Of a DNA stretch of 64,000 bases, positions 773-62,490 are shown piece by piece. Where the stretch lies: NCBI RefSeq assembly GCF_900104655.1, contig NZ_FNWD01000002.1:744001-808000 (forward strand), given 5' to 3'. The DNA is from Millionella massiliensis. Lineage in GTDB: Bacteria > Bacteroidota > Bacteroidia > Bacteroidales > Rikenellaceae. Within the stretch, counting starts at the first letter, position 1; each line of letters begins with the position of its first letter. The notes beneath the pieces are model-generated. The model searched no databases and had not been told where the DNA came from. It worked only from the letters and a program-made list of their open reading frames with translations. A program made the translations under genes and the position numbers.

Positions 773-3400
773 TTAGAGGCGCACGCGCATCGCACGACCG
801 GAATAGGTCACCGTGCGATCGACCGTACCCTGCTCCATTCCGACACCTTTTCCGGTGCCGACCTTAACCAGGTTCAGTTTGCGCTTGGCCACCATTCCGT
901 CGAACGAACCGCTGCGGTCACTGATCGTCAGCACCTGTTTGTCGTCGTCCCACGAAAGGTCATAGGTCGCATAATGACCCTCTTCATAGTTGTAGTTGGT
1001 ACCTTCGTCCTCATAAATGGTGTAGTGTGCGTCGGCTCCGGGATAGATACGGATCTCCCACGCGTCGTCCGGACGTTCTGCGGTGCTCTGCTTCGGTTCG
1101 CCAAGCGGCAGGATCGAACCGGCCTTGACAAAGATCGGGATTTTCGCTTCCGTAACCGGAACTTCAACCGTTTGGCCTGCACCAAGCCGTTCGCCCGTCC
1201 AGAAATCGTACCACCCGGCCGCAGGCTTCGGCAGATAGACCGCCCACTGCGTCACGTTCGGTTCGACCACCGGAGCCACCAGCAGCGCCGGTCCGAACAT
1301 ATAGGAATAGCGGCAGCGCAACGCCTGTTCATCCTCGGCAAAGTCCATCACAAAGGGGCGCATGAGGGTCGAGCCGCGGAACGTAATGGCGGCCGCCTCG
1401 GAATAGGTGTACGGAAGCATCCGGTAACGGAAATCGAGATAGCGGTTGGCCACTTGCGTCACCGTGTCGCCGAAATTCCAGAATTCGGTGTCCGTACCGA
1501 ACCCGTGGACACGTTGCAACGGCAGGAAGGTGGCCGTCTGGAACCAGCGCAGGAAACATTCGTGGTAAGCCGGATCGTCATACTGTCCACCGGGACGGAA
1601 GAAACCTCCCGCATCATAGGTCCACCAGGGAAGCCCCGATGCCATATAATTGAGTCCTCCGGCAATTTGTCGACGCAATGTTTCCCAATCGTAGCCCACG
1701 TCGCCCGACCAGGTGGCCGCGGCATAACGCTGCATGCCGGAGAATCCGCTGCGGGTCAGAATCATCGTCCGTTTTTCTGGCGTATCGCGACGCGACCCCT
1801 CGTAAACGGTCCGGCAAACAAACAGCGGATAGACATTGCGCACCTTTTCACCGGGCCAACGACCGCCATTGACCCGCCGCCCCATCAAGTCGTCGTTTTC
1901 GGGTTCCGTGGCATCCTGCCACCAGGCGTCGATCCCGAGTTTCAACAGGTTTTGACTGAAATTGCGCCAGTAATAACCGGCCGCATCGGAGTTGAAAAAG
2001 TCAATCCAGTCGGTGCCGGGAATATAGAAACTGCTGTCGGCTGCACCTTTTCCGACCTCGGAGGTACGGTCGATCTTCGACCATACGGAGAGCATCAGCC
2101 GCATATCCATGTCGTGCAGTTCACGCACCATGGCGGCCGGATCGGGATAGTTCTGTTCGTCGAACTTCATCGCGTTCCAACCGTAGCGTCCCCAATACAT
2201 CCAGTCCTGCACCATCAGGTCGACGGGCAGCTCGCGTTTGCGGAATTCACGGGCCACGCCGAGCAGTTCGTCCTGCGTTTTGAACCGTTCACGACAGTGG
2301 ACATAGCCCAATGCCCAACGGGGCATCATCGGCGCATCACCGGTCAGGTGGCGATAGGTGGCAATCGCCTCGTCACCCCGACCGCTGAAGACCGTATAGT
2401 CGATTCCGTCGGCCACAGGCGAACGGAATACCGTCTCATCGGTCACTTTCCGGAAAAATACCTCCGGTTTGTCACCCGCCTCGGATTCAACCAGTATATC
2501 GTGCGATCCTGCCTCCAAATCGATCAAAAACGAGGTCGTCCGCGGCAACCAAATGTTATTGACCTCCACAATCGGCTGACCATCGACACGGACCTGATGT
2601 TTGCGAGCCATTGACTGCCCCACATCCATCAGCAACGAATAGGTTCCAGCTTCGTCGACCTGAAGGGTCCCCTGAAACAGATTGGCCCGACGCACTTCGC
2701 GTTTGGTCCCCTCCGTGGTGGTCACTTCGACTGTTTCCGACTCTCCGGCCTGCTGCATGTTTCGCAAAATCACTTTGTTATCCGCCGGATTGAAGTAAGT
2801 CAACCCGTAATTGTGCCACAACAGACCGTACCCTTTGCTCGAGAGAATGAACGGGATGGAAATCTGGGTGTTCAGCTGGGTCAGCCGCCGGGTCAGACCG
2901 CGAATATTCAGGTAACCGTCCTGAAACTGGCCGGTACCGAAAATGTATTCGTCGGCCGGCGATTCGAACCGCTGTTCGATGCCGTAACCATACTCGCCCT
3001 GCACATCGACAGACTGCACCCGCCGCCCGTCGACCTGCTCGGCCAACAGAACACGGCCCGTGCTGTCCCGAAAGACGATATGCCCCTCTTCACGGTTGAT
3101 ACAGGCCCGCAGTGCCGGCGTAGCAACCTCCAGCACCGCCCCGTTTTCCGCAACCCGATACGGGACACTGTCCTGCCGCGAGAGGAAGATGAACTCGGGC
3201 AGCGTTGCGGCGGCATTGCTGCGCAGATACTGGATCCGAATGGCATTACGCGCCATGGGGGTCACAAGCAGTTTACCGTCGGTCATTGTCACTTCGACAA
3301 CCCGACCCCGTTGTTTCCACGAGCGGACCTGTTCCGCCGTCGCCATCAGGCTGCCACCACAGATAAAGGCGGCAACACATACCATCCATTTTATTTTCAT
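773..3400 (-). CDS. GH31 alpha-xylosidase/alpha-glucosidase, secreted, with PA14-like insert
   Basis: 875-residue retaining alpha-glycosidase of family GH31, probably an alpha-xylosidase acting on xylosylated oligosaccharides in the periplasm or outside the cell. Residues 1-22 form a signal peptide with an Ala-rich end (MATA). A beta-sandwich N-domain follows, then a PA14-like insertion at about 240-320 (ending in VFFRK), as in many alpha-xylosidases. The catalytic barrel starts near 350; the nucleophile should be Asp496 in WWQDATEPE and the acid/base Asp567 in WSGDVGYDW. C-terminal beta-domains run to the end, with YEDEG near the C-terminus. Length fits PA14-bearing GH31 enzymes. It is the last gene of the leftward set, 147 bp after the 745-residue protein. 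GH31 also contains alpha-glucosidases and transglycosidases, so the substrate is inferred. Confidence 0.93.
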   Translation of the reverse strand: MKIKWMVCVAAFICGGSLMATAEQVRSWKQRGRVVEVTMTDGKLLVTPMARNAIRIQYLRSNAAATLPEFIFLSRQDSVPYRVAENGAVLEVATPALRACINREEGHIVFRDSTGRVLLAEQVDGRRVQSVDVQGEYGYGIEQRFESPADEYIFGTGQFQDGYLNIRGLTRRLTQLNTQISIPFILSSKGYGLLWHNYGLTYFNPADNKVILRNMQQAGESETVEVTTTEGTKREVRRANLFQGTLQVDEAGTYSLLMDVGQSMARKHQVRVDGQPIVEVNNIWLPRTTSFLIDLEAGSHDILVESEAGDKPEVFFRKVTDETVFRSPVADGIDYTVFSGRGDEAIATYRHLTGDAPMMPRWALGYVHCRERFKTQDELLGVAREFRKRELPVDLMVQDWMYWGRYGWNAMKFDEQNYPDPAAMVRELHDMDMRLMLSVWSKIDRTSEVGKGAADSSFYIPGTDWIDFFNSDAAGYYWRNFSQNLLKLGIDAWWQDATEPENDDLMGRRVNGGRWPGEKVRNVYPLFVCRTVYEGSRRDTPEKRTMILTRSGFSGMQRYAAATWSGDVGYDWETLRRQIAGGLNYMASGLPWWTYDAGGFFRPGGQYDDPAYHECFLRWFQTATFLPLQRVHGFGTDTEFWNFGDTVTQVANRYLDFRYRMLPYTYSEAAAITFRGSTLMRPFVMDFAEDEQALRCRYSYMFGPALLVAPVVEPNVTQWAVYLPKPAAGWYDFWTGERLGAGQTVEVPVTEAKIPIFVKAGSILPLGEPKQSTAERPDDAWEIRIYPGADAHYTIYEDEGTNYNYEEGHYATYDLSWDDDKQVLTISDRSGSFDGMVAKRKLNLVKVGTGKGVGMEQGTVDRTVTYSGRAMRVRL

Positions 3401-3547: not shown

Positions 3548-5785
3548 CTAAATTTCAACTTCCTGTGATTCGCCAGCACCCAACTGAATAGTTTTCAGGT
3601 TGGCAAACGGAGCCTTCATCAGGGTTTTACGAGCCTCTTTCGAAGTTTCGGCACAGATGGTCACTTCGGCCGGATAGTCGGTCGGGTTGGTGATCGTGAG
3701 CACCATCCGTCCGTTTTCGCTCTTCCGGTGTTCGACCTTCATCTGGTCGAATACGGCCACTACCTGACGGTCGGTCTGCACGTAAATACTCGGCAACTGG
3801 GTCACGGTCAGCATCGTAGCCACTTCGCACCAGGAGCAGGACCCGAAGATGCTGCCGCCAACGCCGCCTTTACCTTCCCAGTCACTCAGGTTGACGCGCT
3901 CGCAAATTCCACCCGGAGGCATGCTTCCGATCTGACACTCTTCGCGGCTGACATACTGAGGCAGATTGTGGGCAATATCGGTCAGCAGTTCCAGCGCACG
4001 GCTGTCACCAGAGGCACGATAATAACGGAGCAGACAGTCGCCCGACCAGGTACAGATACCCGGAGCTCCATGTTTGTTGGCCACGCTGGCCCACACGGCT
4101 CCACACGAGCGGGCACCGATCCGCCCCATACTCGATTCTGCCGGGAAGTTGAAATCGTAGGATACGGTCCAGCTGGCGCAGATAGGCAGCAGCTCCGAAG
4201 CGTAGGTGAGCCACTCCTTATCGCCGGTGGCCTCGTACAACACGGTGTAGGCTTCGAAGAGCGCAAAGGCCGACTCACTGTCCGGAGCCGACAGGATTTC
4301 GCCCGGACCGCCGGTCGTGTATCCTTTCGACACATAGTCGCGATAATATTTACGTCCGGCTTCGCAGGCCACTTCCAGGTAGCGCGGTTCGTCATAGGCG
4401 GCAGCAGCCAGTGCAAGACCTGCCGGAACGATGGCACCGGCCGTCGAGTTACCGACCTGAAGTTCACCGGTTTCGACATTCACGAACTGACCAAACTGAC
4501 CGTACCGATCCCACAGCCCCACAAACGCATCGGCCAGTTTTCGGCTGCCTTCCTTCCAGCTCTCCTTGACCTTTTCTCCGCGAGATTCGAGCAGGTTGAG
4601 CTGTTGCAGCGACATATAGAGCCAGTCGCCCTGCGAGCGAACCATCGTCACATTGTTTTCCAGGGGTTTGAAATAACCGAAGCCATAGAACTCTTTTCCG
4701 TCGCCGTAGGCATAAAAGAAGCCGGCCGGAGTTTGCGTACGGCTGTAGATAGCCTCCAAATTGCGCATGGCACGCTGACGGTCGCTATCGTTTCCTTTCA
4801 GTAGGATGGGAAGCGTACTTTGTCCGCCTCCGCACCAACCCAACTGCCATACAAAGTTCCAGGAAGCACTCTCGCGTACGTCGCTCAACCAGTACATATC
4901 GATACGATCGTCCCAGCGACGGGTCTGGTAAAGGTTGTTCATCAGTTTCCACACGTGGCTGTAGGGAACGACCTCGTGCGACTGGCTCTCGTTGAACGTC
5001 TTGCGAACGTCCACAAAGCGGCTCATCATATCGTTCAGCCGTTTGGCCTTGAAATCGTACATGCGGCAACGAATCGTCACCTGCTGCCCCTGTTTGACGT
5101 TGGCCGGCAGGTCGGACATGTTGCCGGTACGAGTCACGGGCGCCAGAATCGAGAAGACGGCCTGCGAACGGTCGTCATTCTCCGCAATTGAGAGTCCATA
5201 GTCGCCCAGCTGGTTCCCCTGATTGGTCTGCACCATCCAGGCACGACGATCGCGGGCCGAGAAGAAGGCCATCAGCGGAGTCGAGGCATTACCCGAGGTC
5301 AGTTCGATCCGCGAAGGTGCGGCATCCTTCTTACCCAGCGTGGGTTGTACGGTCGTGGTGGTGGGCATATCGAGCCGCCACTCGCTCGGCTCGTACCAGA
5401 AAGGAGGATAACCGATATTTTTCACATCGAATCGGTTCCCATCATATACGATGGCGGGCACGAAGACATAATTGTCCGGGGTCCAACCGTCGAACTGGAA
5501 ATCGACGGCGAACGAAACATCTTTGGCTTCACCGCTCTTGAGTTCCCAGGTGAAGGTATAATCCTGCGCCGAGGCGTCGCCGGGCACAGGCTGCTGATCG
5601 ACGGTCAACTGCCATTGACAACCGTTCGCGTCGGTTTTCGTCGGATTCTGGAGGTCAAAATCGGTACGCGAGACAACCTGTCCCTCCCGATGGTAACGGA
5701 CTGCCGGGACGATCCGGCTGGCGGCCGTCGCTTCGCACCACAGGGCCGAAGCGGCAAGCAACCATATCATCTGTTTGATTTTCAT
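3548..5785 (-). CDS. Secreted (alpha/alpha)6-toroid-like protein of unknown family, possible glycosidase
   Basis: 745 residues, signal peptide 1-22 (ends EATAAS). Not assigned to a known family. Residues 25-250 look like a beta-sandwich (YTFTWELKSGEAKDVSFAVDF). From about 260 to 670 the protein is helix-rich with Trp, Tyr and acidic residues between hairpins (GWCGGGQSTLP, PAGFFYAYGDGKEFYG, GAPGICTWSGDCLLRYYRA), the pattern of six-hairpin glycosidases. Near the end, GGICER (Cys628, Glu629) is followed by FGSCSWCE (Cys650, Cys653, Glu654) and then LPSIYVQ. This recalls the GH127/GH146 pattern of Cys-rich motif, helix and YIY strand, where cysteines bind zinc and one is the nucleophile. A small beta-domain closes the protein. 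It sits 19 bp after the DUF5703 gene, so they are cotranscribed. Function is inferred only. Confidence 0.85.
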   Translation of the reverse strand: MKIKQMIWLLAASALWCEATAASRIVPAVRYHREGQVVSRTDFDLQNPTKTDANGCQWQLTVDQQPVPGDASAQDYTFTWELKSGEAKDVSFAVDFQFDGWTPDNYVFVPAIVYDGNRFDVKNIGYPPFWYEPSEWRLDMPTTTTVQPTLGKKDAAPSRIELTSGNASTPLMAFFSARDRRAWMVQTNQGNQLGDYGLSIAENDDRSQAVFSILAPVTRTGNMSDLPANVKQGQQVTIRCRMYDFKAKRLNDMMSRFVDVRKTFNESQSHEVVPYSHVWKLMNNLYQTRRWDDRIDMYWLSDVRESASWNFVWQLGWCGGGQSTLPILLKGNDSDRQRAMRNLEAIYSRTQTPAGFFYAYGDGKEFYGFGYFKPLENNVTMVRSQGDWLYMSLQQLNLLESRGEKVKESWKEGSRKLADAFVGLWDRYGQFGQFVNVETGELQVGNSTAGAIVPAGLALAAAAYDEPRYLEVACEAGRKYYRDYVSKGYTTGGPGEILSAPDSESAFALFEAYTVLYEATGDKEWLTYASELLPICASWTVSYDFNFPAESSMGRIGARSCGAVWASVANKHGAPGICTWSGDCLLRYYRASGDSRALELLTDIAHNLPQYVSREECQIGSMPPGGICERVNLSDWEGKGGVGGSIFGSCSWCEVATMLTVTQLPSIYVQTDRQVVAVFDQMKVEHRKSENGRMVLTITNPTDYPAEVTICAETSKEARKTLMKAPFANLKTIQLGAGESQEVEI

Positions 5786-5804: not shown

Positions 5805-8048
5805 TTAGTGATTCAAACGAATTTTCTGTTTCGATTTGTGGCCCAGCGTCGGTTTTTCGACCCATTTGCCGTTTTCGTACACTCCGGTAACGGTATTATT
5901 CCCCAGTGTATAGAGTTTGAAACGCACGTTCCAATCCTTGGGGAAGGCCGGCAGTACGTAGATCGATTCACCGTAACTCTGCAGAATCATATCCTGAAGG
6001 GTGGTCAGCAGGTTGCCACCGTGGTCTTCGTCGGGCGTCCAGTCGTTGTTCGGCCCCCACGATACGGGGAAGCGATGGTTCGGATGGCTGTTCTGCAGTT
6101 TGGCCAGCACATTGTCGCGAGCCTCGTCGGTCAGCCCCAAACGGGCGGCCAACTGTCCATCCTGCCACCAGCAGGTCGTGTTGTGGAGAATACGTCGATT
6201 GTAGCTCTCGATGCCGACCTTCAGGTCCGGTGTGCCGACGTGGCAAAGCGGGAACGGGAAAATGGCATAGAGTTCGGGAGCCTCCATATTGGTACGGTTA
6301 GTCCCGAACTTTTCGGCCGGGACAAAAACGGTCTGGCCTTCCACCTCGCGGGTAGGCACGGACGGCAGGATCTGCTGCATGGCGCTCCATCGCTGACGGT
6401 CTTCGGCCGAAGTCAGCTCTTCAGGCAGGCTCATCAGCCCGTCGAGCACATAGTGCAGCCCCGCTACGTTGGGCAGGTCGTTTTCCACATTGTCCCAATA
6501 GGTTTCGAGCGAATGGGTCGGGGTGATACGGAGAAGCCCCTGATCGTCGCGCGGGAAGAAGGAGTCGTAGAATTTCAGCACTTCGCGTGCCATGGGCACC
6601 AGCGTGTCGGCAGCAAAGGCACGGTCTTCGGTGTACAGATAATAATCGTACATCAGCGCCGCAATTTCCAAACCGGAACTCCAGTAGTAGCGAACGTAGG
6701 AATTTTCGATCTCTCCGGTTTTGAGTTCCGAGCGATCCCAGCCGTAGTCACGATTGGTGAAGGTTCCGTAGATGGTCGAAGTCTCGGGATTCACGGCACC
6801 CTCGGCTCCAAAGAAGACCTCGGCGTTTCGTTTGAGCATCGGCAGGTTCGAGAAATAGTGGCGGAACAAAACGCGCATCATGTCGAAATCGCCGCTTTTC
6901 AGCATCGGATGGTACATCAGGCGGGTATTCTGCCACCAGTATTCGGCTCCCCAGGCCCGGTAATCGGGATTATAGGCTTTCCCGTTGGTATAGACCGGAT
7001 CAACCGTAAAGATCGAACCGTTGAACTTGATCGGATAGTTGCCGCGACCGCCGCAAGCGTTTTTCCAGTTTTGCAGAATATAGGCCTGGGTCAACCGATC
7101 GCCGGTCTTGCCGTCGGGGGTTGTGACCGTGACGTAGCTTTTGTCCCAAAAGGCACGCCACCACGAGGCGGTACGGTCGGCCGATGCTTCGAACGAAGCG
7201 GCATTGCCCAGGGTCTGCTCAATGCGATCGACCCACTGCTGCTCGGTATCGGTCTGAGCCGTCAGCACGGCAATCTTCAACCCGAAACTTTCGACAGGCG
7301 CACTGCTGCCGAGCAGGGTCGGGGTTAATTTGACAAATCCTTCACCGGCCACGTCATATCCCATCGTGCGGTGCATCAACGGGTCGTGTTTCAGGTTCTC
7401 TTCGGTGGCCAACTCCTGATGACGCAGCGTGAAGGGGTAAATCGAGTGTTCGTTGCGATGATAGACGATCAACCGGTCCCCGCGGTCAGCGATTCGGTCG
7501 GGATATTCAGTAAGCAGGGAGTCGTGCGGACAACGCTGCACGGCAAAAGCCCGCTCGTCGACCTGCGGCAGACGGGCCTGCGTGCGCCAGATTTCGGACG
7601 ACACGGTGACCTGAACCGGACGGGTCGACTCGCCCTGAAGGTACACCACGGGCGACTGACTGTCGACCCAGAAGTCAAGATCGACCTTTTGCTGCTGGTT
7701 GCCGACTTCGATTTCGATTTTCCCCTCCTCGAGGTTCAGAAACTGACGGAACGACACGTCGCCTCCTTCGGGGAACGGATAGAGCGATACGCGCAGCCGC
7801 CCAACCTTGTACAGGGCGCTGTTTTCGGCCCAGGAATCGGTCCGGGAGAGGTAAAACACCAGATTTCCATTGGGTTCCATCCATACGTTGGCCCCGACTT
7901 CACCGTTGCCGATCGGCATGGAGCCGGAGGCGTTTTCGGAAGGAGTCTCCCAATTCACCGTATAACGGTTGACCACGTCCGATTGGGCGCAAACCGATGC
8001 CGGGAGCATCGCGGCACATAGCGCGGCAAGCCACAGATTATGTTTCAT
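5805..8048 (-). CDS. DUF5703 domain-containing secreted protein, probable glycosidase
   Basis: 747 residues with signal peptide 1-21 (ends ASVCAQ). The N-terminal part carries the DUF5703 signature: WETPSENASGSMPIGNGEVG at about 34-53, then EPNGNLVFYLSRTDSW and a Lys/Gly/Arg strand. The rest is a helical toroid rich in aromatic and acidic residues (TYWDNVENDLPNVAGLHYVLDG, HNTTCWWQDGQLAARLGL, FPVSWGPNNDW). That architecture resembles GH95-type fucosidases and galactosidases: beta-sandwich, helical linker, toroid, small C-terminal beta-domain. No activity is firmly known to me for DUF5703 proteins, so 'glycosidase' is an inference from fold pattern and context. It is the first gene of the leftward operon, 19 bp before the 745-residue protein. 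Confidence 0.88.
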   Translation of the reverse strand: MKHNLWLAALCAAMLPASVCAQSDVVNRYTVNWETPSENASGSMPIGNGEVGANVWMEPNGNLVFYLSRTDSWAENSALYKVGRLRVSLYPFPEGGDVSFRQFLNLEEGKIEIEVGNQQQKVDLDFWVDSQSPVVYLQGESTRPVQVTVSSEIWRTQARLPQVDERAFAVQRCPHDSLLTEYPDRIADRGDRLIVYHRNEHSIYPFTLRHQELATEENLKHDPLMHRTMGYDVAGEGFVKLTPTLLGSSAPVESFGLKIAVLTAQTDTEQQWVDRIEQTLGNAASFEASADRTASWWRAFWDKSYVTVTTPDGKTGDRLTQAYILQNWKNACGGRGNYPIKFNGSIFTVDPVYTNGKAYNPDYRAWGAEYWWQNTRLMYHPMLKSGDFDMMRVLFRHYFSNLPMLKRNAEVFFGAEGAVNPETSTIYGTFTNRDYGWDRSELKTGEIENSYVRYYWSSGLEIAALMYDYYLYTEDRAFAADTLVPMAREVLKFYDSFFPRDDQGLLRITPTHSLETYWDNVENDLPNVAGLHYVLDGLMSLPEELTSAEDRQRWSAMQQILPSVPTREVEGQTVFVPAEKFGTNRTNMEAPELYAIFPFPLCHVGTPDLKVGIESYNRRILHNTTCWWQDGQLAARLGLTDEARDNVLAKLQNSHPNHRFPVSWGPNNDWTPDEDHGGNLLTTLQDMILQSYGESIYVLPAFPKDWNVRFKLYTLGNNTVTGVYENGKWVEKPTLGHKSKQKIRLNH

Positions 8049-8825: not shown

Positions 8826-10145
8826 TTATTGATTGTCGGCCACCTGCTTTTCGGCCCACTGCCGCATCATCTCGATCGCCTTGGCCAGCACACCGGCCGA
8901 ACCTTTGAACTGACCGCTACCGCTAGGCACACCTCCCATCCCGTACCATTCGTAAAAACCACCGTTGGCCAGCACACGGTCGATCATGGGACGCACCTCG
9001 GCATAGGCCTCCTCCACCATTCCGTTGGCCACCAACTGCTGAATCATGCGGCCGCCGAACCAGGTCCAGTCTCCGCCATTCTGATAGACATACGGTTGCG
9101 CCATGCCGCCGTGGAAAAACCCTTCGGGATAGGGCGGATAGAGCGTCAGCCCGATACTCGGCATCCCCGAGAGACGTACGTTTTCGAGCATCTGTGCATT
9201 GACCGTCCGAATCTCCTCCTCGGAGAGCAATCCGGCCTCAATGGCCACCGCCGTACCGCCGTGATAATGTACCTGCCGTTCGTCAAACTCCTCGGGCACG
9301 GGCGACGGATCAATATAGACATGGGGGCGGAATTTGCGTAACTCCGTATCCCACAGATGGGTTCGCACGTTTTTCGCGATCCGGTCATGCAACTCGGCAT
9401 AGCGGTTCCGGACGTAGGGATCGTCCGTGAGGGCCTGTAAATGGTCCAACGCAATCAGAAACATCGCATTGTCGTACACATCGATGGCCCGCACCGAAAG
9501 TTCGTTCATGTCACACCCGAAATCATCGTTGGGCTGCACATCGCCCCAGTCGGCCGTCATCGCCCCGAAGAGCAGACCGTGCGACTCGTCGAAACGCTCC
9601 CGCAACAGGTACTCCACCATCTCGTCCATCCGTTCGAGCACAGTGCGTCCGGCAACCGATTCATACAGAATGGTACTGTCTCCCGTCCTGTCCACATACT
9701 TGCCGACAATCTGTATCAACGAAGATTCCTGGTCCGTTTCGACCGTATTTTTAAAAGCGACATGGTCGGGCGCGGCATCGGAATAGTATGGCGTATCGTC
9801 GTGCCACGTAAAGTCGGGTTTGAGCACATACCCGTCGATCATCTCACCGTTCGGCTGCTGAAGGGCAAAGAAGAGCAGAATGGCCTGTCGCAGCTGCGCG
9901 GGGTCGTTCTCCTCACAAGCCGTTTCGATAAAGGTATTCATATCCCGGGCCCAGATCTGAGAATATCCACTGCCGGCATTGAATCCTTGACGGATGACAC
10001 TTCGGGCCATGCTGTCGACCCGTATCAGCGTCGAATCGCCGAGAATCGTTTCGGCCAGTTGCATTTCAGGAGTTTGCGTAGCACAGGCACAGCAGATACA
10101 CCCCGCCATTCCGGCAAAAAACAGACGGTTCCACTTAATTTTCAT
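8826..10145 (-). CDS. Six-hairpin glycosidase-like lipoprotein
   Basis: 439 residues. The N-terminus MKIKWNRLFFAGMAGC has a lipobox-like MAGC with lipidation expected at Cys16. The mature part is one helical domain with hairpin-loop motifs typical of (alpha/alpha)6-toroid glycosidases: SGYSQIWARDMNTFIE near 60-75, PNGEMIDGYVLKPDFTWHDDTPYY near 99-122, KNTVETDQESSLIQI, and YVYQNGGDWTWFGGRMI near 365. The WARD plus TDQESS pattern recalls glycogen-debranching-type and GH63/GH37-like toroids, but I cannot assign a CAZy family. Acidic pairs in WHDD and GDWTW are plausible catalytic positions. It is transcribed divergently from the AraC regulator with 95 bp between starts, which suggests control by that regulator. 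An exo-acting alpha-glycosidase is the best guess. Confidence 0.85.
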   Translation of the reverse strand: MKIKWNRLFFAGMAGCICCACATQTPEMQLAETILGDSTLIRVDSMARSVIRQGFNAGSGYSQIWARDMNTFIETACEENDPAQLRQAILLFFALQQPNGEMIDGYVLKPDFTWHDDTPYYSDAAPDHVAFKNTVETDQESSLIQIVGKYVDRTGDSTILYESVAGRTVLERMDEMVEYLLRERFDESHGLLFGAMTADWGDVQPNDDFGCDMNELSVRAIDVYDNAMFLIALDHLQALTDDPYVRNRYAELHDRIAKNVRTHLWDTELRKFRPHVYIDPSPVPEEFDERQVHYHGGTAVAIEAGLLSEEEIRTVNAQMLENVRLSGMPSIGLTLYPPYPEGFFHGGMAQPYVYQNGGDWTWFGGRMIQQLVANGMVEEAYAEVRPMIDRVLANGGFYEWYGMGGVPSGSGQFKGSAGVLAKAIEMMRQWAEKQVADNQ

Positions 10146-10240: not shown

Positions 10241-11134
10241 ATGGTCAGAATTAAAGAAGGTTTCAAAAATGAGCGATTCGTATCCCTGTCCGACAGCCTG
10301 CTCGAAACGTACAGCCAGGATCCGCTGATCGGGAACCTTTACCCCCGGAAAATCGGCTATTTTCCCCGCGTAAAATACCATTATGTACGCAAGGAACAGG
10401 GTTGTGACTACATGATGCTGATCTATTGCACCGAGGGAAAAGGGTGGTACCAAATCGAAGGCCACACCTACCCCGTCCACCAGGACGAATACCTGCTGAT
10501 CCCGAGCGACACCCCCTACGCCTTCGGCGCAGACGAGACAGATCCTTGGACTATCTACTGGTTGCATTTCAAGGGCCACACCAGCCGTCAATTCCTGCCG
10601 GCATCGCCCAATCCACGCGAAATCACCCCCGGCGAACACTCCCGGCTACAGGACCGCCTGCAACTCTTCGAAGAGATCTATCACGCCTTTTCGCAAGCCC
10701 ATCACCGGGAATACATGCTTTACGCCTCTTTGTGCCTCTATCAGTTTCTGGGTTCGTTCATCTGTCTGGAGCCCTACCGATCGATTCTGACGGCCAATGC
10801 CGGACAGGACACGACCTTCTCCGAAAAAGTCATCCGATACATGCACGAAAACGTCCAGCACCGCCTGACCCTCGAACAGCTCGCCTCGTACTTCAAATAC
10901 TCCCCGTCACACTTTTCGACCCTTTTCCAACGCGAAACCGGCGTCTCGCCGATCAACTATTTTCTGCGCCTGAAGATCCAGAAGGCTTGCCGATACCTGG
11001 AGATGACCAACCTGAAACTGAACGAGATCGCCCCCCTGCTCGGATTCGACGAACCAGCCTACTTTTCACGCTCCTTCTCGAAAATCATGGGCGTCTCGCC
11101 GTCCCACTACCGCCGCAAGGAGATCGGACGCTAA
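10241..11134 (+). CDS. AraC-family transcriptional regulator
   Basis: 297 residues, cytoplasmic. Residues 30-130 form a cupin-like effector-binding arm (DYMMLIYCTEGKGWYQIEG, then DEYLLIPSDTPY), as in XylR/RhaR-type AraC regulators that sense a sugar directly. Residues 195-293 hold the double helix-turn-helix: first helices in LTLEQLASYFKYSPSHFSTLFQ, second in LKLNEIAPLLGFDEPAYFSRSFSKIMGVSPSHYRR, the usual C-terminal signature. It lies between the divergent lipoprotein glycosidase and the GH35-GH43-GH2 operon, so it is the likely activator of this locus. Finding a one-component regulator here, rather than a hybrid two-component sensor or SusR-like protein, is a little unusual for Bacteroidales glycan loci. 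The sensed sugar is unknown. Confidence 0.95.
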   Translation: MVRIKEGFKNERFVSLSDSLLETYSQDPLIGNLYPRKIGYFPRVKYHYVRKEQGCDYMMLIYCTEGKGWYQIEGHTYPVHQDEYLLIPSDTPYAFGADETDPWTIYWLHFKGHTSRQFLPASPNPREITPGEHSRLQDRLQLFEEIYHAFSQAHHREYMLYASLCLYQFLGSFICLEPYRSILTANAGQDTTFSEKVIRYMHENVQHRLTLEQLASYFKYSPSHFSTLFQRETGVSPINYFLRLKIQKACRYLEMTNLKLNEIAPLLGFDEPAYFSRSFSKIMGVSPSHYRRKEIGR

Positions 11135-26077: not shown

Positions 26078-26854
26078 TTAAGCTTTGATCTTCAATCCGT
26101 CGTATGCGGGATAGACGTTTTCGGGCAACTCGCCACAGAGGTCGCGATGCAGCCCCAGTTGGTGTGACATGTGGGTCAAATAGGCCCGTCCGGGGCGTGC
26201 CCGACCGATGATGTCGAGAGCCTGGGTGAGCGTAAAGTGCGAGAGATGTTCTTTCCGACGCAGTGCATTGATTACCAACACATCTACCCCTCTGAACTTA
26301 TCGATCTCGTGCTCTTCGATCGCGTTCATGTCGGTCAGGTAACAGATGTTCCCGATCCGATAGCCGAGCACGGGGAGTTTATAGTGCCGCCCCCGAATGG
26401 GAACGACCTGAACACCGCAGACATCGAAGGGTGTCTGATCCGAGAGGATGGGATGCAGCACAACGTCGGGCACTCCGGGATACTTCGGCTCGGCAAAGGC
26501 GTAGTCGAAGATGCGTCGGAGGGTCTTTTCGACGCGGGGCTCGCAATAGAGATCGATGGCCCGCTGCATGACGTAGTTGAATGCGCGCACGTCGTCCATT
26601 CCTCCTACGTGGTCCATGTGCTCGTGGGTGTAGAGGATCGCATCGATTTCGGAGATGTGCTCGCGCAGCATCTGATAACGAAAATCGGGACCCGAATCAA
26701 TAACGATGCGCACGCCGTTCTGTTCCACCAGCACGGACGAGCGCAGCCGTTTGTCACGAGGGTCGGTCGAGCTGCAGACTGCGCAGCCGCAACCAATAAT
26801 CGGCACCCCTTGCGAGGTGCCGGTTCCCAGAAATGTCAGTTCAGTCTCAGGCAA
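26078..26854 (-). CDS. MBL-fold metallo-hydrolase, PhnP-like
   Basis: 258 residues. N-terminal LGTGTSQGVPIIGCGCAVC is characteristic of the PhnP-like/phosphoribosyl cyclic phosphodiesterase branch; the metal-binding HxHxDH motif is His77-Glu-His79-Met-Asp81-His82, and GHYKLPVLGYRIGNICYLTDMN and HLSHFTLTQAL supply further ligands. Likely a cytosolic phosphodiesterase, but the substrate in Bacteroidetes is unclear and no phn genes are nearby. It overlaps the phosphohexomutase gene by 8 bp and precedes the SDR by 3 bp, indicating a translationally coupled operon. Confidence 0.93.
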   Translation of the reverse strand: MPETELTFLGTGTSQGVPIIGCGCAVCSSTDPRDKRLRSSVLVEQNGVRIVIDSGPDFRYQMLREHISEIDAILYTHEHMDHVGGMDDVRAFNYVMQRAIDLYCEPRVEKTLRRIFDYAFAEPKYPGVPDVVLHPILSDQTPFDVCGVQVVPIRGRHYKLPVLGYRIGNICYLTDMNAIEEHEIDKFRGVDVLVINALRRKEHLSHFTLTQALDIIGRARPGRAYLTHMSHQLGLHRDLCGELPENVYPAYDGLKIKA

Positions 26855-28604
26855 GGTTCAACTCTTTTTTGATCCGTTCGATTTTCTCGCCGAGCTGTGC
26901 GTTCACCTGATCGTAGTGTGCCTTGTCGGCCAACGGTTCGCGTACACCGAAATAGAACTTGATCTTCGGTTCGGTACCGCTGGGGCGCACCGATACGATG
27001 GTCGAATCTTCGGTCACAAATTGCAGTACGTCGGACTTGGGCAGGTGATCCATCGTCTCTTTCACACCGTTCACGATCTTATACTGTTCTTTGTAGTCGC
27101 GCACTTCGACAACTTTCGAGCCGGCCAGCTCCTTGGGAGGCTGGTTGCGGAAATCGACCATCATCTGTTTGATCTCGGCCTGTCCGTCTTTGCCTTTGCG
27201 CACTACCGAAACAAGCCCTTCCTTAAAGAAGCCGTACTTCACGTAGATCTCCTTGAGCAGGTCGAGCAGCGAGCCCTTGCCGGTCGATTTGGCCCAGGCG
27301 GCACACTCGGCCACCATCGAAGCACTGGCCACGGCATCCTTGTCGCGCACGGAGTCACCAACCAGATAACCGTAACTTTCTTCGCCACCGCCGATGAACT
27401 GTTTTTTACCTTCGTTTTCACGAATCACGGCCGCAATGAATTTGAAGCCAGTGAGCACGTCGTAGCATTCCACGCCGAACGAGGCGGCAATACGGGCAAT
27501 CAGTTCGGTCGTCACGATGGTTTTGACCATGAATTCCTGGCCTTCATTGGGATGAAGTTTGCCGAGTTCTTTCCAGCGTTCGAGCAGATAATAGGTCAAC
27601 AGCGTGCCGGTCTGATTGCCGTTCAGCAGCAACATTTCACCACCCTCGGCTGCAGACTGCCGCACGGCGATTCCGATACGGTCGGCATCGGGGTCGGTGG
27701 CGATCACCAGGTCGGCTCCGGTTTCGTCGGCTTTGGCCAGGGCCAGTTTCAGCGCCGAAGGCTCTTCAGGGTTGGGCGACACCACGGTCGGGAAGTTCCC
27801 GTCGTTGACATCCTGTTCGGGCACGTGGATCACGTTTTCAAAGCCGTACCGTTTCAGCGAAGCGGGCACAAGCCGCACGCCGGTCCCGTGAATCGGGGTG
27901 TAAACGATCTTCATATCCTTTTCGGCCTTCACGGATTCGGGCGAGAGCGACAGGGCGGCGATCATATCGAGATAAGCCTTGTCGACCTCCTCGCCGACGG
28001 TGATGATCTTACCGTCGCCGCCAGAGAATTTCACCTGCGAGATGTCGGAGATTTTGTTGACCTCGTCAATGATATTGGTATCGTGCGGTGCGATCACCTG
28101 CGCCCCGTCGTTCCAGTAGGCTTTATAACCGTTGTACTCCTTGGGGTTGTGCGAAGCGGTCACCACCACTCCGCTCATGCAACCCAGGTGACGGATCGCA
28201 AAGCTCAGTTCCGGGGTCGGACGCAGCGCGTCGAACAGATATACGGTAAAACCGTTGGCTGCAAAAACATCGGCGGTGGTTTTGGCAAACAGGTCGCTGT
28301 TGTTGCGGCAGTCGTGCGCTACGGCCACTTTGATTTCCTGTCCGGGGAACGACTTTTTCAGGTAGTTGGCCAACCCCTGAGTCGCCATCCCGACAGTGTA
28401 GATATTCATTCGGTTGGTTCCGACCCCCATGATACCGCGCAAACCGCCGGTACCGAACTCCAGCGTCTGATAAAACGACTCGGTCAGTTCTTTGGGATCT
28501 TCGGCCATCATTTTGCGGACAGCCGCTTTGGTTTGCTCGTCGTATTCCCCATCGAGCCACTGCTGAGCGCGTTGGGCAACGATTTTGTCCACTTGATTTT
28601 CCAT
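26847..28604 (-). CDS. Phosphoglucomutase/phosphomannomutase (alpha-D-phosphohexomutase)
   Basis: 585 residues, cytosolic. Interconverts hexose 1- and 6-phosphates via a phosphoserine: Ser151 in TASHNPKEYNGYKAYW. The metal loop is DPDADRIG and the sugar-binding loop GGGEESYGYL. C-terminal phosphate-binding domain ends SVRPSGTEPKIKFYFGV. The length fits the long PgcA/ManB-type family typical of Bacteroidetes. First gene of an operon with the MBL-fold and SDR genes, overlapping the former by 8 bp. A TATTTTTG promoter box lies 28 bp upstream. Confidence 0.95.
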   Translation of the reverse strand: MENQVDKIVAQRAQQWLDGEYDEQTKAAVRKMMAEDPKELTESFYQTLEFGTGGLRGIMGVGTNRMNIYTVGMATQGLANYLKKSFPGQEIKVAVAHDCRNNSDLFAKTTADVFAANGFTVYLFDALRPTPELSFAIRHLGCMSGVVVTASHNPKEYNGYKAYWNDGAQVIAPHDTNIIDEVNKISDISQVKFSGGDGKIITVGEEVDKAYLDMIAALSLSPESVKAEKDMKIVYTPIHGTGVRLVPASLKRYGFENVIHVPEQDVNDGNFPTVVSPNPEEPSALKLALAKADETGADLVIATDPDADRIGIAVRQSAAEGGEMLLLNGNQTGTLLTYYLLERWKELGKLHPNEGQEFMVKTIVTTELIARIAASFGVECYDVLTGFKFIAAVIRENEGKKQFIGGGEESYGYLVGDSVRDKDAVASASMVAECAAWAKSTGKGSLLDLLKEIYVKYGFFKEGLVSVVRKGKDGQAEIKQMMVDFRNQPPKELAGSKVVEVRDYKEQYKIVNGVKETMDHLPKSDVLQFVTEDSTIVSVRPSGTEPKIKFYFGVREPLADKAHYDQVNAQLGEKIERIKKELNLA

Positions 28605-29025
28605 AGTATGCTGATGTATTTAGTTTCGACTCAAAAATACACACCTTATCTTTTACAAATTTAATACCTTTTCCCGGGATTCACAACCCCAAAAATTCAA
28701 GATCCGGACGGCCCAACAACCCCATGCCGGAGACTGATTTCTTAACCTTCTGATCTACAATACCGATCGCAATACAAGAAGATATAATTAATTGATTTTG
28801 TGAGTCTTAAAATTTTCATCAGTACCAAAAATTCATAAAAATCGCCGTAAATCTTATATTACCAAAACATTACCGCTACCCGTCCGGGACCTATAATGAA
28901 ACAATCTGAAAAAACAATCCCGAGACGTTTTTTTTATTCCAATTTATTCCACACTTTTGTACGGAAAATCAGCCCCCAAAAGGCACTTTCCAAGACCGTA
29001 AACTATCGAGAAATCTTTACATTAA
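28605..29025. other. AT-rich divergent promoter region between pgm and dnaA
   Basis: 421 bp. A TATTTTTG box on the minus strand at 28639-28632 should drive the phosphohexomutase. On the plus strand CACTTTTG at 28952-28959, one mismatch from TAnnTTTG, preceded by a T tract, is the best dnaA promoter. Searching for TTATCCACA-type DnaA boxes gave no exact match, so this is not supported as oriC. Confidence 0.55.
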
Positions 29026-58632: not shown

Positions 58633-58956
58633 ATACCATCCCGCGAGCTATTATCATTACACCCAATCCCCCATGAACCGCAATCCCATATAACTACTTT
58701 GCAATCCCCGAAAAAAACAAAGACCCTCAATCGAATACATGCCGTTTTTACCGCACCAATTCCCTGATTCCATTTTCCAGCCTTCGCAGTTTATCTCGCA
58801 AAATAACAATAACCACATCAAAATCAAATCTATTTATCTTATAAAATGATGCGAATTATTCGTATTAGCATAATTTTGTAAAGTACAGAGAGAGGCATGG
58901 TCACCGACCCTCTTTTCCACAAGTCATCCATCTGTTTAACCCATAAAACCAAGATT
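58633..58956. other. AT-rich leader region of the GH106-like gene
   Basis: No gene. TAATTTTG at 58871-58878 matches the -7 consensus exactly and would start a transcript near 58885, about 70 nt before the ATG at 58957. No -33 TTTG at the normal distance and no operator recognised. Confidence 0.55.
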
Positions 58957-61900
58957 ATGCAAAAGTATTTAACCCTGGTTTTCGTGCTTGTGCTCTGCTG
59001 CCATATGGCAGTCACTCCAAGTTCGGCACAAGTCGGATACCCCGATCGAGATTCACGTCAGGACGCACTGCCCGGATTCAGAAGTCCGCCAGCCGGTTAT
59101 GGCGAAGTTCCCTTTTACTGGTGGATGGGCGACACCCTGACACGGGAACACCTCACCGCCCATCTGGACCTGCTGAAAGGACGCGGCATCAGCAGTCTGC
59201 AGGTAAACTACGCCCACAGCGACAAAGGCGGGAAGCTATGGGGACTGACCTATAAGTCGAAGCCCGAAATCTTCACCGACGAGTGGTGGGAACTGTTCGG
59301 ATGGTTCATGCGCGAAGCCAGGAAACGCGGCATGACCGTCAGCCTGAGCGACTACACCTTAGGAGTGGGCCAGGAACAATACGTCGACCACATACTTGCC
59401 GACCATCCGGAAGTCACCGGATCCGAACTGCGATTTCTCAAACAGCGGGCCCAGGGTTCACTCCACTGGGAGCTACCGGCCGAACCGCTCACCGTACAGG
59501 CCTATCGGATAGACTCCGACAGTTCACTCATCGCCACATCGGTCATCGATCTTACCCCCCACTGCCAGGCCAAAACACTGAATTGGGACGTTCCCGAAGG
59601 CGACTGGATGATCACCGTCGTCTATGCGTCCCCCAAGATACCCTCCTATGACCCGATGCACCCTCAGTCCGGCCAGCTGTACATCCAATACTTCTTTCAG
59701 CAATTCGAAGACCGCTTTCCCGAAGACTCCAAAGGGGGTCTGAACTTTTTCTTTTCCGACGAATTGAACTTTCAACTGGGAAATCTGATCTGGAACTCCT
59801 ACTTTCAGGAGGAATTCAAGAAACGCAAAGGATACGACATCGTTCCCCATTTGGCCGCTTTGTTTGTGGACCTCGGCGACAAGACTGCCAAATACCGGCT
59901 GGATTACAACGACGTGATGGTATCCCTGAGCGAAGAGAACTTTTTCGAACCCGTCTACCGCTGGCATGACGAACGTGGTCTGATCTACGGTTGCGACCAC
60001 GGCGGTCGCGGACTGGACGTAGCCGAATTCGGCGACTACTTCCGCACCCAGCGCTGGAACCAGGGGCCCGGTTGCGACCAGCCAAAACTGGCAAAGGATA
60101 TTATTAAGAACAAGGTAGCCTCTTCGATCGCCCACATGTACGAACGTCCGCGAGTCTGGCTGGAAGGATTCCACAGCAGCGGCTGGAGCACCTCGTCCGG
60201 TCAACTGCTGGACGCCATTTTCGCCAACTTCGTACAGGGACAGAACCTGCTGAGTCTGCACGGTCTCTACTACTCGACCCCCGGCGGATGGTGGGAATGG
60301 GCTCCGCCCTGCAACCACTTCCGGATGCCGTACTGGGCCGAGATGGACAAACTGCTGGCCTGCACCGAGCGACTGAGCTATCTGCTATCGCAAGGGTATC
60401 ACCGTGCCGACGTAGCGATTCTCTACCCGGTGGAGCCCGTCATAGCCGGAGACGGCCGACACTCTGTTGACTGTGCATTCGCCATCGGTACCGAGCTTTA
60501 CCATCAGGGGATCGACTTCGACTTCATGGACTACGAATCGCTGGCACGTGCCGAAATTGACGGCAACCACCTGAAAGTCTCGGGCGAGACCTTCCGTATC
60601 CTGATCATCCCGGCCATGGAGACCATGCGAAGCAGCTCCATCCAAAAAGCCCTCGATTTTCAGCAAGCAGGCGGGACAGTACTCTGCATCGACCGCCGCC
60701 CTGAAGCTACGGAAGCCGGGAAAGCCGATACCGCGATGCTCGAACGGATCGGCCACCTCACCATTACGCCCCGTTCGCGCGTGCTCAACGCCGTTGAACG
60801 TGCGACCGTTCGGGATTTCCGCATCGTATCGGGCACGATAGACGAGCCGAACGTCATGCACCGCAAGATCGGTCCGCGCGATGTTTACGCCGTTTATCAC
60901 GTGGACAAAGATGCCCTATGTTACTTCCGCAGCACAGGCAGAGCCGAACTGTGGGACCCCTGGACCGGTGAAGTACGACCGCTCACCGTAAGCCGAACCG
61001 ACTCCGCAGGCAGCTATCTGCGGATGCCGCTCGAAAAGACGGAAATTCAGCTGATTGTTTTCAATCCGGACCAGCCCGCCATCATCGGAGACAGCGCACC
61101 GTCCAAGACACTGACCGCCCTCCCGCTGACCGGTGTCTGGGAGACCGAATTGATTCCCGTACTGGACAACCGTTGGGGCGATTTTCACTGGCCCGCCACC
61201 GCAGAGAAGATCGGTGCAGAGATTCGTAAAATGGAGCACACCAACCATGTCAGTGCCGGTTGGCAAGGCACACTCTGCCAAACGCAAGGCTGGGAGATGC
61301 AGAGTCTGGGATTCGGAGACTACATGCTACAACTGGCGGCACTGCCTGAAGCCCTCGACACCGCCGAACTGCTGCAACACATCGATCGCCAGCCGTGGCA
61401 GCCATACGCTTTTTCGTGGCGCTGGGGTGTAGAGAACGACTACGGCCATCAGGGATACCACGGGTTGAAAAGCGAGATGTACGCCGACTTCATCCGCTTG
61501 GGGCAGATCAAGGACGAATTTACGGAGCTGAAGCGTGTCGCCGATCCGAAAGGGTCGCATTACTACCTGCTGACCGACGTTATCGCACCCGCAGCCGGAA
61601 GCTATGAGATGCTTTGCGGCACCACTCGCCCGACCGACCTTTGGATCAATGGGCAAAAGGTTCCGACCTTTTCCAACGGCAACCGCATCACGTTGCAAGC
61701 CGGCGCCAACCGCCTCCTGCTTCACTACGACGGAGCCTGCACCACCTACTTTCTGATCCGCGATCCGGCCCAAACGGGTCAGATCGTTTCGGAGACCCTT
61801 GCGGAACGCCCTCTTTCGATGCCGTGGAACGGCGACCTGTCGCTGCTACCTTTCGTATCGCCCTCCCACACCGCCAAGCAGTACTTCCGTTTTCTCTCCG

Positions 61901-62490
61901 CTCCAGGCCTCGAAGCGCTCGATTTTTCAGCCTACGCCTCGCAAATCCAGGTCTGGATCGACGGTGAACCCGCCCACATAACTCGTGGAGCGATGCGCCC
62001 CGACAGTCTGGTATCCTACCGGGTCGAAACGCCTCGCAGGGAGAACCCTGCACTGGTAGCCATCGAACTGGAAAGCCCCTATCCCGGCGGCGCAGTCTTC
62101 CCCTATCCGATCCGTCAACAATGCGGTCGCGGCAAGTTGGAGCCGGGCGACTGGAGCCGGCAGCCGGGGCTGAACTGCTACTCCGGCGGCATGTGGTACC
62201 GCCAAGAGATCGACCTCGACGAGACGACCTGTCGGCAAGTCGTTGCACTTGATCTGGGCGAAGTGGTTTCGACCGCCGAAGTGTTTGTCAACGGTCAGTC
62301 GGCAGGGCTGCGCATGGCCGCCCCGTGGAAGTTCGACCTCACCGGACTGCTGAAACCCGGCAAAAATCGACTGGAAATCCGGGTCTATAATACCGCAGCG
62401 ACCCACTACATCTCCATACCGACCATGTATCGCGGCGACATCACTTCCGGTCTGTTGAAAACTCCCAGTTTACTTCTGCAAGAAGAGTAG
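58957..62490 (+). CDS. GH106-like secreted glycoside hydrolase (possible alpha-L-rhamnosidase)
   Basis: 1177 residues from the ATG at 58957, which gives the signal peptide MQKYLTLVFVLVLCCHMAVT. An in-frame upstream ATG at 58897 would put 20 extra residues ahead of the signal. The N-terminal YWWMGDTLTREHLTAHLDLLK near 54-74, then a barrel with FFSDELNF (Glu269) and WLEGFHSSGW (Glu403), resembles the GH106/PF17132 alpha-L-rhamnosidase family, which uses calcium-assisted acid catalysis. Beta-domains follow, and the end FVNGQSAGLRMAAPWKFDLTGLLKPGKNRLEIRVYN is a galactose-binding-like module. The family is remote, so the substrate is only a suggestion. It stands alone; no PUL partners adjoin it. 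Confidence 0.85.
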   Translation: MQKYLTLVFVLVLCCHMAVTPSSAQVGYPDRDSRQDALPGFRSPPAGYGEVPFYWWMGDTLTREHLTAHLDLLKGRGISSLQVNYAHSDKGGKLWGLTYKSKPEIFTDEWWELFGWFMREARKRGMTVSLSDYTLGVGQEQYVDHILADHPEVTGSELRFLKQRAQGSLHWELPAEPLTVQAYRIDSDSSLIATSVIDLTPHCQAKTLNWDVPEGDWMITVVYASPKIPSYDPMHPQSGQLYIQYFFQQFEDRFPEDSKGGLNFFFSDELNFQLGNLIWNSYFQEEFKKRKGYDIVPHLAALFVDLGDKTAKYRLDYNDVMVSLSEENFFEPVYRWHDERGLIYGCDHGGRGLDVAEFGDYFRTQRWNQGPGCDQPKLAKDIIKNKVASSIAHMYERPRVWLEGFHSSGWSTSSGQLLDAIFANFVQGQNLLSLHGLYYSTPGGWWEWAPPCNHFRMPYWAEMDKLLACTERLSYLLSQGYHRADVAILYPVEPVIAGDGRHSVDCAFAIGTELYHQGIDFDFMDYESLARAEIDGNHLKVSGETFRILIIPAMETMRSSSIQKALDFQQAGGTVLCIDRRPEATEAGKADTAMLERIGHLTITPRSRVLNAVERATVRDFRIVSGTIDEPNVMHRKIGPRDVYAVYHVDKDALCYFRSTGRAELWDPWTGEVRPLTVSRTDSAGSYLRMPLEKTEIQLIVFNPDQPAIIGDSAPSKTLTALPLTGVWETELIPVLDNRWGDFHWPATAEKIGAEIRKMEHTNHVSAGWQGTLCQTQGWEMQSLGFGDYMLQLAALPEALDTAELLQHIDRQPWQPYAFSWRWGVENDYGHQGYHGLKSEMYADFIRLGQIKDEFTELKRVADPKGSHYYLLTDVIAPAAGSYEMLCGTTRPTDLWINGQKVPTFSNGNRITLQAGANRLLLHYDGACTTYFLIRDPAQTGQIVSETLAERPLSMPWNGDLSLLPFVSPSHTAKQYFRFLSAPGLEALDFSAYASQIQVWIDGEPAHITRGAMRPDSLVSYRVETPRRENPALVAIELESPYPGGAVFPYPIRQQCGRGKLEPGDWSRQPGLNCYSGGMWYRQEIDLDETTCRQVVALDLGEVVSTAEVFVNGQSAGLRMAAPWKFDLTGLLKPGKNRLEIRVYNTAATHYISIPTMYRGDITSGLLKTPSLLLQEE

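Follow-up and report, generated by a model that had tools for sequence, protein, structure and literature searches.

The window analysed here is a stretch of 64,000 nt from contig NZ_FNWD01000002.1 of Millionella massiliensis, and the gene under study, the target, lies at 3548-5785 on its minus strand. An original prediction had noted a protein of 745 residues at this place; the open reading frame (ORF) is real and has 745 codons. We tentatively read its product as a lyase of an undescribed family, resembling the polysaccharide lyases of family PL27. The target stands in a row of GH31, target and DUF5703 genes, present as originally described. Because the three genes share a strand, with gaps of 147 bp (GH31 to target) and 19 bp (target to the DUF5703_N gene), they are probably co-transcribed. 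The row and the next gene upstream are as follows:

773-3400, minus strand: GH31 gene, downstream of the target in the same gene row (Pfam).
3548-5785, minus strand: the target, a secreted-looking (α/α)6 enzyme of an undescribed family, 745 aa (ORF, profile searches, predicted model and alignment).
5805-8048, minus strand: upstream gene, DUF5703_N joined to a GH95-like catalytic part (Pfam).
8826-10145, minus strand: next gene further upstream, a lipoprotein-like, GDE_C-related protein (20.7 bits, cut-off 21).

A gene at 10241 resembles an AraC-type regulator, as judged from its sequence and not by a profile, and beyond it GH35, GH43 and GH2 genes lie on the opposite strand. Past the left end of the window are an unnamed protein (unkA), an esterase, a sugar transporter, GH38, GH92 and a ROK kinase. 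The surroundings of the target thus look like a large glycan-degrading cluster. No mention of DUF5703 was found in the open-licence literature searched.

The N-terminus of the target protein reads like a signal peptide, suggesting that the protein is secreted. It had been remarked earlier that the protein matches no recognisable family, and indeed no Pfam or NCBIfam model scores above its cut-off; the best Pfam match is PF07944 (GH127), with 16 bits (E=0.0064) against a cut-off of 24.9. A single-sequence search of solved structures (PDB) returned nothing at E≤10, and a profile search of the PDB with an alignment of the family (A1) gave five weak matches, the best of them to GH76 (E=0.013). The target family is without a name in Pfam and NCBIfam, and it is called undescribed here with respect to these two databases, CAZy not having been compared. 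The open-licence literature searched contained nothing on it.

The predicted model of the target (mean predicted local distance difference test score, pLDDT, 81.8; predicted template modelling score, pTM, 0.87) consists of an N-terminal β-sandwich followed by an (α/α)6 toroid, in line with the helical toroid pattern noted earlier. The two domains are encoded at:

5003-5716, minus strand: N-terminal β-sandwich, approximately residues 24-261, holding P110, Y114 and N117 (model; conservation in the sister set A2, see below).
3776-4963, minus strand: (α/α)6 toroid, approximately residues 275-670 (model; VIA matches cover approximately residues 268-712).

Foldseek placed PL27 BACCELL_00875 (5no8/5nok) at the top of the matches to this model (E=5.4e-12), followed by GH116 as the next distinct protein (9.0e-9); the GH127 protein HypBA1 was also matched (entry 7dif, 6.2e-7). 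In the VIA comparison, GH76 mannanases reached the highest Z (24.1; root-mean-square deviation, rmsd, 3.7; 328 residues), covering the toroid only, and PL27 covered both domains (Z 22.1, rmsd 6.6, 463 residues). The sister protein L004, encoded in the same genome and predicted from its own alignment (pLDDT 84.4), again had PL27 first with Foldseek (1.7e-13) and GH116 next (3.1e-10), and VIA ranked PL27 21st by Z (Z 22.9, rmsd 8.0, 493 residues). HypBA1 and other GH127 entries were absent from the 50 VIA matches listed for either model, which is an absence from the list only. According to PMC8377490, PL27 has a β-sandwich plus (α/α)6 architecture and frees rhamnose from glucuronate by β-elimination. 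Its catalytic residues were not found among the open-licence literature matches listed.

Relatives of the target came from several sources. One scan of genome contigs yielded a single relative, from Parabacteroides faecis (74%), where the gene forms part of a locus with susC/susD and GH97. Whole-genome searches covered the target's own genome, 296 genomes from its phylum, 101 and later 268 from its family, 149 from the family of genome G182, and 247 and 393 from the order, the last of these with the P. faecis protein as query. With repeats removed and repeated gene places counted once, the family alignment contains 29 full-length members, the window protein included. The family is sparse, with a member at E≤1e-60 in 7 out of 268 genomes of the target's own taxonomic family and in 14 out of 393 of the order. 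A tree of the 29 members showed two clades, clade I (n=12), to which the window protein belongs, and clade II (n=17). Two tandem clade II paralogues are encoded in the target's own genome at C1:2064795-2069131 (L002, L003, L083), where an ORF resembling GH3, on sequence alone, directly precedes them on the same strand.

A more distant sister set (A2) comprises 22 of the 27 loci listed; L026, L037, L041, L044 and L047 were omitted as fragments or outliers, and L008 had been omitted earlier. One of its rows, most likely L007, carries a thioredoxin-DsbH domain. A2 includes L004, which has no Pfam match at E≤1, and aligns with the target family at 100% in hhalign, with 16-18% identity. P110, Y114, N117, D502, E504, H572, G625 and E629 are common to both groups, each present in 19-22 of the 22 A2 sequences (P110 22/22, Y114 20/22, N117 19/22), and are the strongest candidates for active-site residues common to the two. 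C578 does not figure among the conserved positions that the groups share, and W652 falls outside the aligned range, 55-644.

Within the family, R383, D387, D502, N570, H572, C578, S581, E629, R630, D635, W652 and Y668 are kept in 29/29 members, and E504 and E654 in 28/29. The motifs GGICER, FGSCSWCE and LPSIYVQ singled out by the original prediction are all present, and its numbering of C628, E629, C650, C653 and E654 is correct. C628 and C650 co-occur in exactly four members (window, L005, L009 and L117) and are missing from the remaining 25. These carriers form the window's own subclade, the other three being 52-74% identical to the window protein. C653 and C318 occur together in two members only, the window protein and L005, which carry all five cysteines (C318, C578, C628, C650 and C653). 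The cysteine cluster therefore belongs to one small subclade; judging by its distribution, the motif exceeds chance only locally and is a local feature, not the family's active site. By their joint occurrence both pairs, C628/C650 and C653/C318, would fit disulfides, four and two members of a single clade being too few for proof. In the model, each of the five cysteines appears to sit where an inner helix begins or in the loop leading into it, which would be the pocket side. The residues in question are encoded at:

4832-4834, minus strand: C318 in GW(C)GG (with C653 in the same 2/29 members).
4274-4282, minus strand: D502-S503-E504, start of an inner helix, candidate active-site acids (D502 29/29, E504 28/29; in the sister set D 22/22, E 21/22).
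4070-4072, minus strand: H572, candidate active-site residue (29/29; sister set 20/22).
4052-4054, minus strand: C578 (29/29), on the Cys position of the GH127 zinc pair E-x-C, with G576 at the Glu position.
3899-3904, minus strand: C628-E629 (E629 29/29, sister set 20/22; C628 4/29).
3824-3838, minus strand: C650-S-W652-C653-E654, with W652-C653 on the GH127 CC (W652 29/29, E654 28/29, C650 4/29, C653 2/29).

The original prediction had likened this region to the Cys site and YIY strand of GH127. A distant relationship of the target family to the GH127 superfamily is supported by profile comparisons. PF07944 matches 15 out of 19 members at E≤1 (best 2.9e-7), and two clade II relatives (at the L024 and L010 places) exceed its cut-off once neighbouring stretches are added. 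Compared by hhalign with a set of 17 GH127-type sequences (A3), the family scored 96.1%, and the larger family 95.6% (E=1.3e-8). A3 was drawn from 30 loci, 19 of which had ETC-type and CC motifs; L051 and L053 were left out, their genera being already represented. Because its rows were chosen for having both motifs, A3 is 17/17 at the ETC and CC columns by construction. In the hhalign register, G576-x-C578 coincides with the E-x-C zinc pair, W652-C653 with CC and Y668 with the IY strand. The original prediction was thus right in its sense of the strand and of C653, which falls on the second Cys of CC; no GH127 zinc ligand corresponds to C628 or E629, and here the likeness did not hold. The position of the GH127 nucleophile, the first Cys of CC, is occupied by Trp (W652) in 29/29 members and that of the zinc Glu (576) by Gly or Ala in 29/29. 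Of the zinc-ligand positions G576, C578, W652 and C653, the window protein keeps two out of four and the whole family one (C578).

These results bear on the possibility that the target is a cysteine glycosidase of GH127/GH146 type whose zinc site has been rearranged and consists of C318, C578, C628, C650 and C653 together with E629 or E654. The placement of C578 on the E-x-C Cys and of C653 on the second Cys of CC, the PF07944 matches, and the five cysteines of the window protein and L005 all speak in its favour. In a GH146 enzyme, however, none of the residues concerned (three zinc Cys, the Glu, the acid/base) proved dispensable (PMC10850190). Since the nucleophile and zinc-Glu positions are substituted throughout the family and C628 and E629 match no ligand, with C653 in two members and C628/C650 in four, a cysteine-glycosidase mechanism is not expected, and we regard it as very improbable. 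GH127-type catalysis was rejected for the target on the conservation in the 29 members together with the profile-profile mapping, and the proposed Cys/Glu zinc site is not supported as the catalytic centre.

Relatives also match other toroid families. GH88 (PF07470) is matched weakly by 8 out of 19 (best 1.4e-6), three clade II places (L002, L003 and L034) passing its cut-off only with neighbouring stretches added, and the window protein does not match PF07470 (GH88/GH105) at E≤1. As relatives match both GH76 and GH88, the Pfam signal is that of the toroid in general. An epimerase/isomerase-like enzyme or a non-catalytic sugar-binding toroid is conceivable, the toroid being common to cellobiose 2-epimerases and AGE-type isomerases (Z ~20-24), but we consider it unlikely. 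Pfam epimerase models are weak on the family (PF07221 in 5/19, best E 0.099; PF06662 in 2/19, best 0.062), none matches the window protein at E≤1, and the secreted-looking two-domain form and the glycan-degrading clusters point to a depolymerising role.

Two kinds of neighbour recur in clade I. The DUF5703 gene adjoins the family member in the window and at L027 and L084, and lies one gene away at L028; the DUF5703_N/GH95-like pairing recurs at L080, L102 and, one gene away, L081. GH105-type genes (PF07470) adjoin the member at L087 and L088 (gaps of ~9 and 42 bp), are separated from it by kduI at L006, and lie one gene away at L028. In clade I, 4 of the 12 members have a GH105-type gene no more than one gene away; counting strong PF07470 hits within 5 kb, the figures are 4 of 12 in clade I and 0 of 17 in clade II (Fisher p=0.021, a test that ignores the kinship of the members and is thus too kind). 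Random placement, based on PF07470 counts per genome at E under 1e-30, predicts ~0.2 such neighbours in all, a figure that is too low since such genes cluster. Some contigs are short (that of L027 ends ~300 bp past the gene, and that of L022 measures 5.6 kb), so missing neighbours at such loci mean little.

At L082, one of the four GH105-linked clade I loci, the row consists of the family member, kduI (380 bits, NCBIfam cut-off 250) and the GH105-type gene; upstream, on the opposite strand, there is a gluconate 5-dehydrogenase gene (446 bits, cut-off 369). The GH105-type partners of L099 and L100 match YteR-type GH105 structures. That of L100 keeps an Asp that is Asn in the YteR entry 2gh4, a position that we take to be the catalytic D143, and also matches 5noa, a GH88 whose PDB entry shares its title with that of PL27.

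Clade II members are found beside unkA, which is adjacent to them or one gene away in 10 of the 13 BLAST-labelled loci (the place of the family member at L111 comes from the family genome search). In the target's own genome unkA is L078:349-2604 (C1:725349-727604), ~20 kb from the target, and represents a 750-aa family (A4). The 12 aligned copies of A4, the others being 34-71% identical to the own-genome copy, have no match in Pfam (three members searched), NCBIfam (one member) or a PDB profile search. A 996-aa ORF of the same cluster (L078:4911-7898) matches nothing in Pfam at E≤0.001 and nothing in NCBIfam at E≤0.01.

The window genome had at one point seemed to be without unsaturated-uronate hydrolases. 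This proved wrong: it encodes a UGL-type GH88 of 417 aa (L121), ~1.4 kb from a KduI/IolB-family gene, which has only 29.3 bits on PF07470 yet matches 3wiw at 3.6e-106. PF07470 scores classical UGL-type GH88 weakly, and the same caution applies to other genomes without a strong PF07470 hit. The region, C1:214000-226000, brings together the KduI/IolB-family gene, a PfkB-type sugar kinase, the UGL-type GH88 and a heparinase II/III-like protein, and is likely a uronate-glycan locus. An unsaturated product could therefore be used in this genome; nothing ties the locus to the target.

Taken together, a lyase or an acid-type hydrolase is more likely than a cysteine-zinc arabinosidase. We give preference, at somewhat less than an even chance, to an undescribed family of PL27-like lyases with uronate-containing glycans as substrate, because of the sandwich-plus-toroid architecture, the PL27 top match, and the GH105-type genes and, once, kduI beside relatives. 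We infer the chemistry, the exo mode and the substrate: the enzyme would cut the bond next to a uronic acid by β-elimination, working from the chain end, and the unsaturated uronate left behind would then be removed by GH105/GH88 enzymes where a relative encodes such a neighbour. The pocket may be lined by D502, E504, H572, C578, E629, R630 and W652, perhaps with Y114 from the sandwich. C318, C628, C650 and C653 are lineage-specific extras, of which C628 and C650 would form a loop-closing disulfide.

A number of observations weigh against the lyase. Loops 495-500, 566-571 and 633-638 of the model are weak (pLDDT under 50). TM-scores to PL27 are only 0.36-0.43, with an rmsd near 11 Å over the whole chain, so this match is a distant likeness of architecture, and 5no8 is absent at E≤10 from the single-sequence and the A1/A2 profile searches. 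No GH105 gene was found beside the target in the window's subclade (4/29; for L005, whose genome was not searchable, this refers to the flanks only), and the genes scanned in the part of the cluster within the window include GH31, GH35, GH43 and GH2 but none for uronate. KduI/IolB-family genes occur in 10 out of 12 genomes, and the presence of one therefore says little. An NCBIfam β-galactosidase model is also matched by the GH105-type partners of L082 and L099, at 124 and 107 bits and thus far short of the cut-off of 420, which leaves the activity of these partners uncertain, and other lyase-like genes at L081 and L099 (a β-helix and a sub-threshold heparinase-like gene) could be the source of the unsaturated product. 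Where family members match Pfam weakly, the models are mostly those of hydrolases (GH127 15, GH76 10 and GH88 8 out of 19); those to the hydrolase family GH76 (PF03663, at E≤1) reach 8.4e-7, and L030 passes the cut-off (27.3 against 25.9 bits). Moreover, the deepest-conserved residues, D502, E504 and E629, would suit an acid/base hydrolase equally well.

An acid-type hydrolase comes close to a lyase in likelihood, since the acids are conserved and the clusters rich in hydrolases. The target would then be an (α/α)6 glycoside hydrolase of an undescribed family, a possibility that also falls short of an even chance, using a carboxylate pair such as E504 and E629 (with D502 or E654) instead of a cysteine, and trimming a plant or host glycan side chain together with GH31, GH35, GH43, GH2 and the DUF5703/GH95-like enzyme. 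This agrees with the near-invariance of the four acids in the family and with the retention of D502, E504, H572 and E629 in 20-22 of the 22 distant sister sequences. In the model, with inner and outer helices assigned by hand, E504 opens an inner helix and E629 lies in a long loop before the last inner helix. The weak GH127, GH76 and GH88 matches, the many hydrolases in the window and in clade II clusters, and the GH76 mannanases as the highest VIA Z (24) for the toroid alone are likewise consistent with hydrolysis. The top full-length structural match, however, is a lyase, and the GH105-type and kduI partners in clade I argue in the same direction. A role in glycan cleavage, as originally proposed, is plausible, being supported by fold and gene context.

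In a bolder scenario, which we think quite unlikely, a new polysaccharide lyase family would have its toroid scaffold in common with GH127, the nucleophile position having turned into an invariant Trp, and one small lineage within it, comprising the window genome and Parabacteroides faecis, would have regained a thiolate cluster (C318, C578, C628, C650 and C653) at the old zinc position, as a second-time metal or thiol centre.

If the target is a lyase, the families that take off caps adjoining uronic acids in complex glycans of plants or hosts would gain a further one, and a Bacteroidales gene group left unnamed by Pfam and NCBIfam would acquire a function. Such a lyase would also show how a GH127-like barrel can lose its cysteine-zinc centre and still work with other residues.

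Two other genes of the window deserve mention. A 652-aa ORF on the plus strand (26706-28661), between the recA and dnaA genes, has no Pfam match at E≤0.001, and a 1197-aa protein (58897-62487) joins a GH106-type α-L-rhamnosidase domain to a GH2-type sugar-binding domain.

Compared with known systems, the target family has the GH127/GH146 β-L-arabinofuranosidases (PF07944, clan GH-P) as relatives over the C-terminal half, where the register of the inner helix, E-x-C, CC and the IY strand corresponds, and the (α/α)6 barrel is common to both (in the model, and with HypBA1 among the Foldseek matches). It differs from them in having Trp in place of the nucleophile Cys, Gly or Ala in place of the zinc Glu, and the second CC Cys in only 2/29 members. 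The sister set A2, for example L004, has Y114, N117, D502, E504, H572 and E629 in common with the target family, but at 16-18% identity only and without C578 among the shared conserved positions. GH76 α-1,6-mannanases resemble the target in their VIA score for the toroid, and relative L030 exceeds the GH76 cut-off, but the match is limited to the toroid (model residues ~268-713) at 10-12% identity, and the window protein itself has no match to PF03663 at E≤1. PL27 L-rhamnose-α-1,4-D-glucuronate lyase (BACCELL_00875, 5no8/5nok) differs from the target in sequence, with 8-12% identity in structural alignments, the low TM-scores given above and no sequence match, but has the same combination of a β-sandwich and an (α/α)6 barrel, a likeness that extends to the GH105-type neighbours of some clade I relatives.

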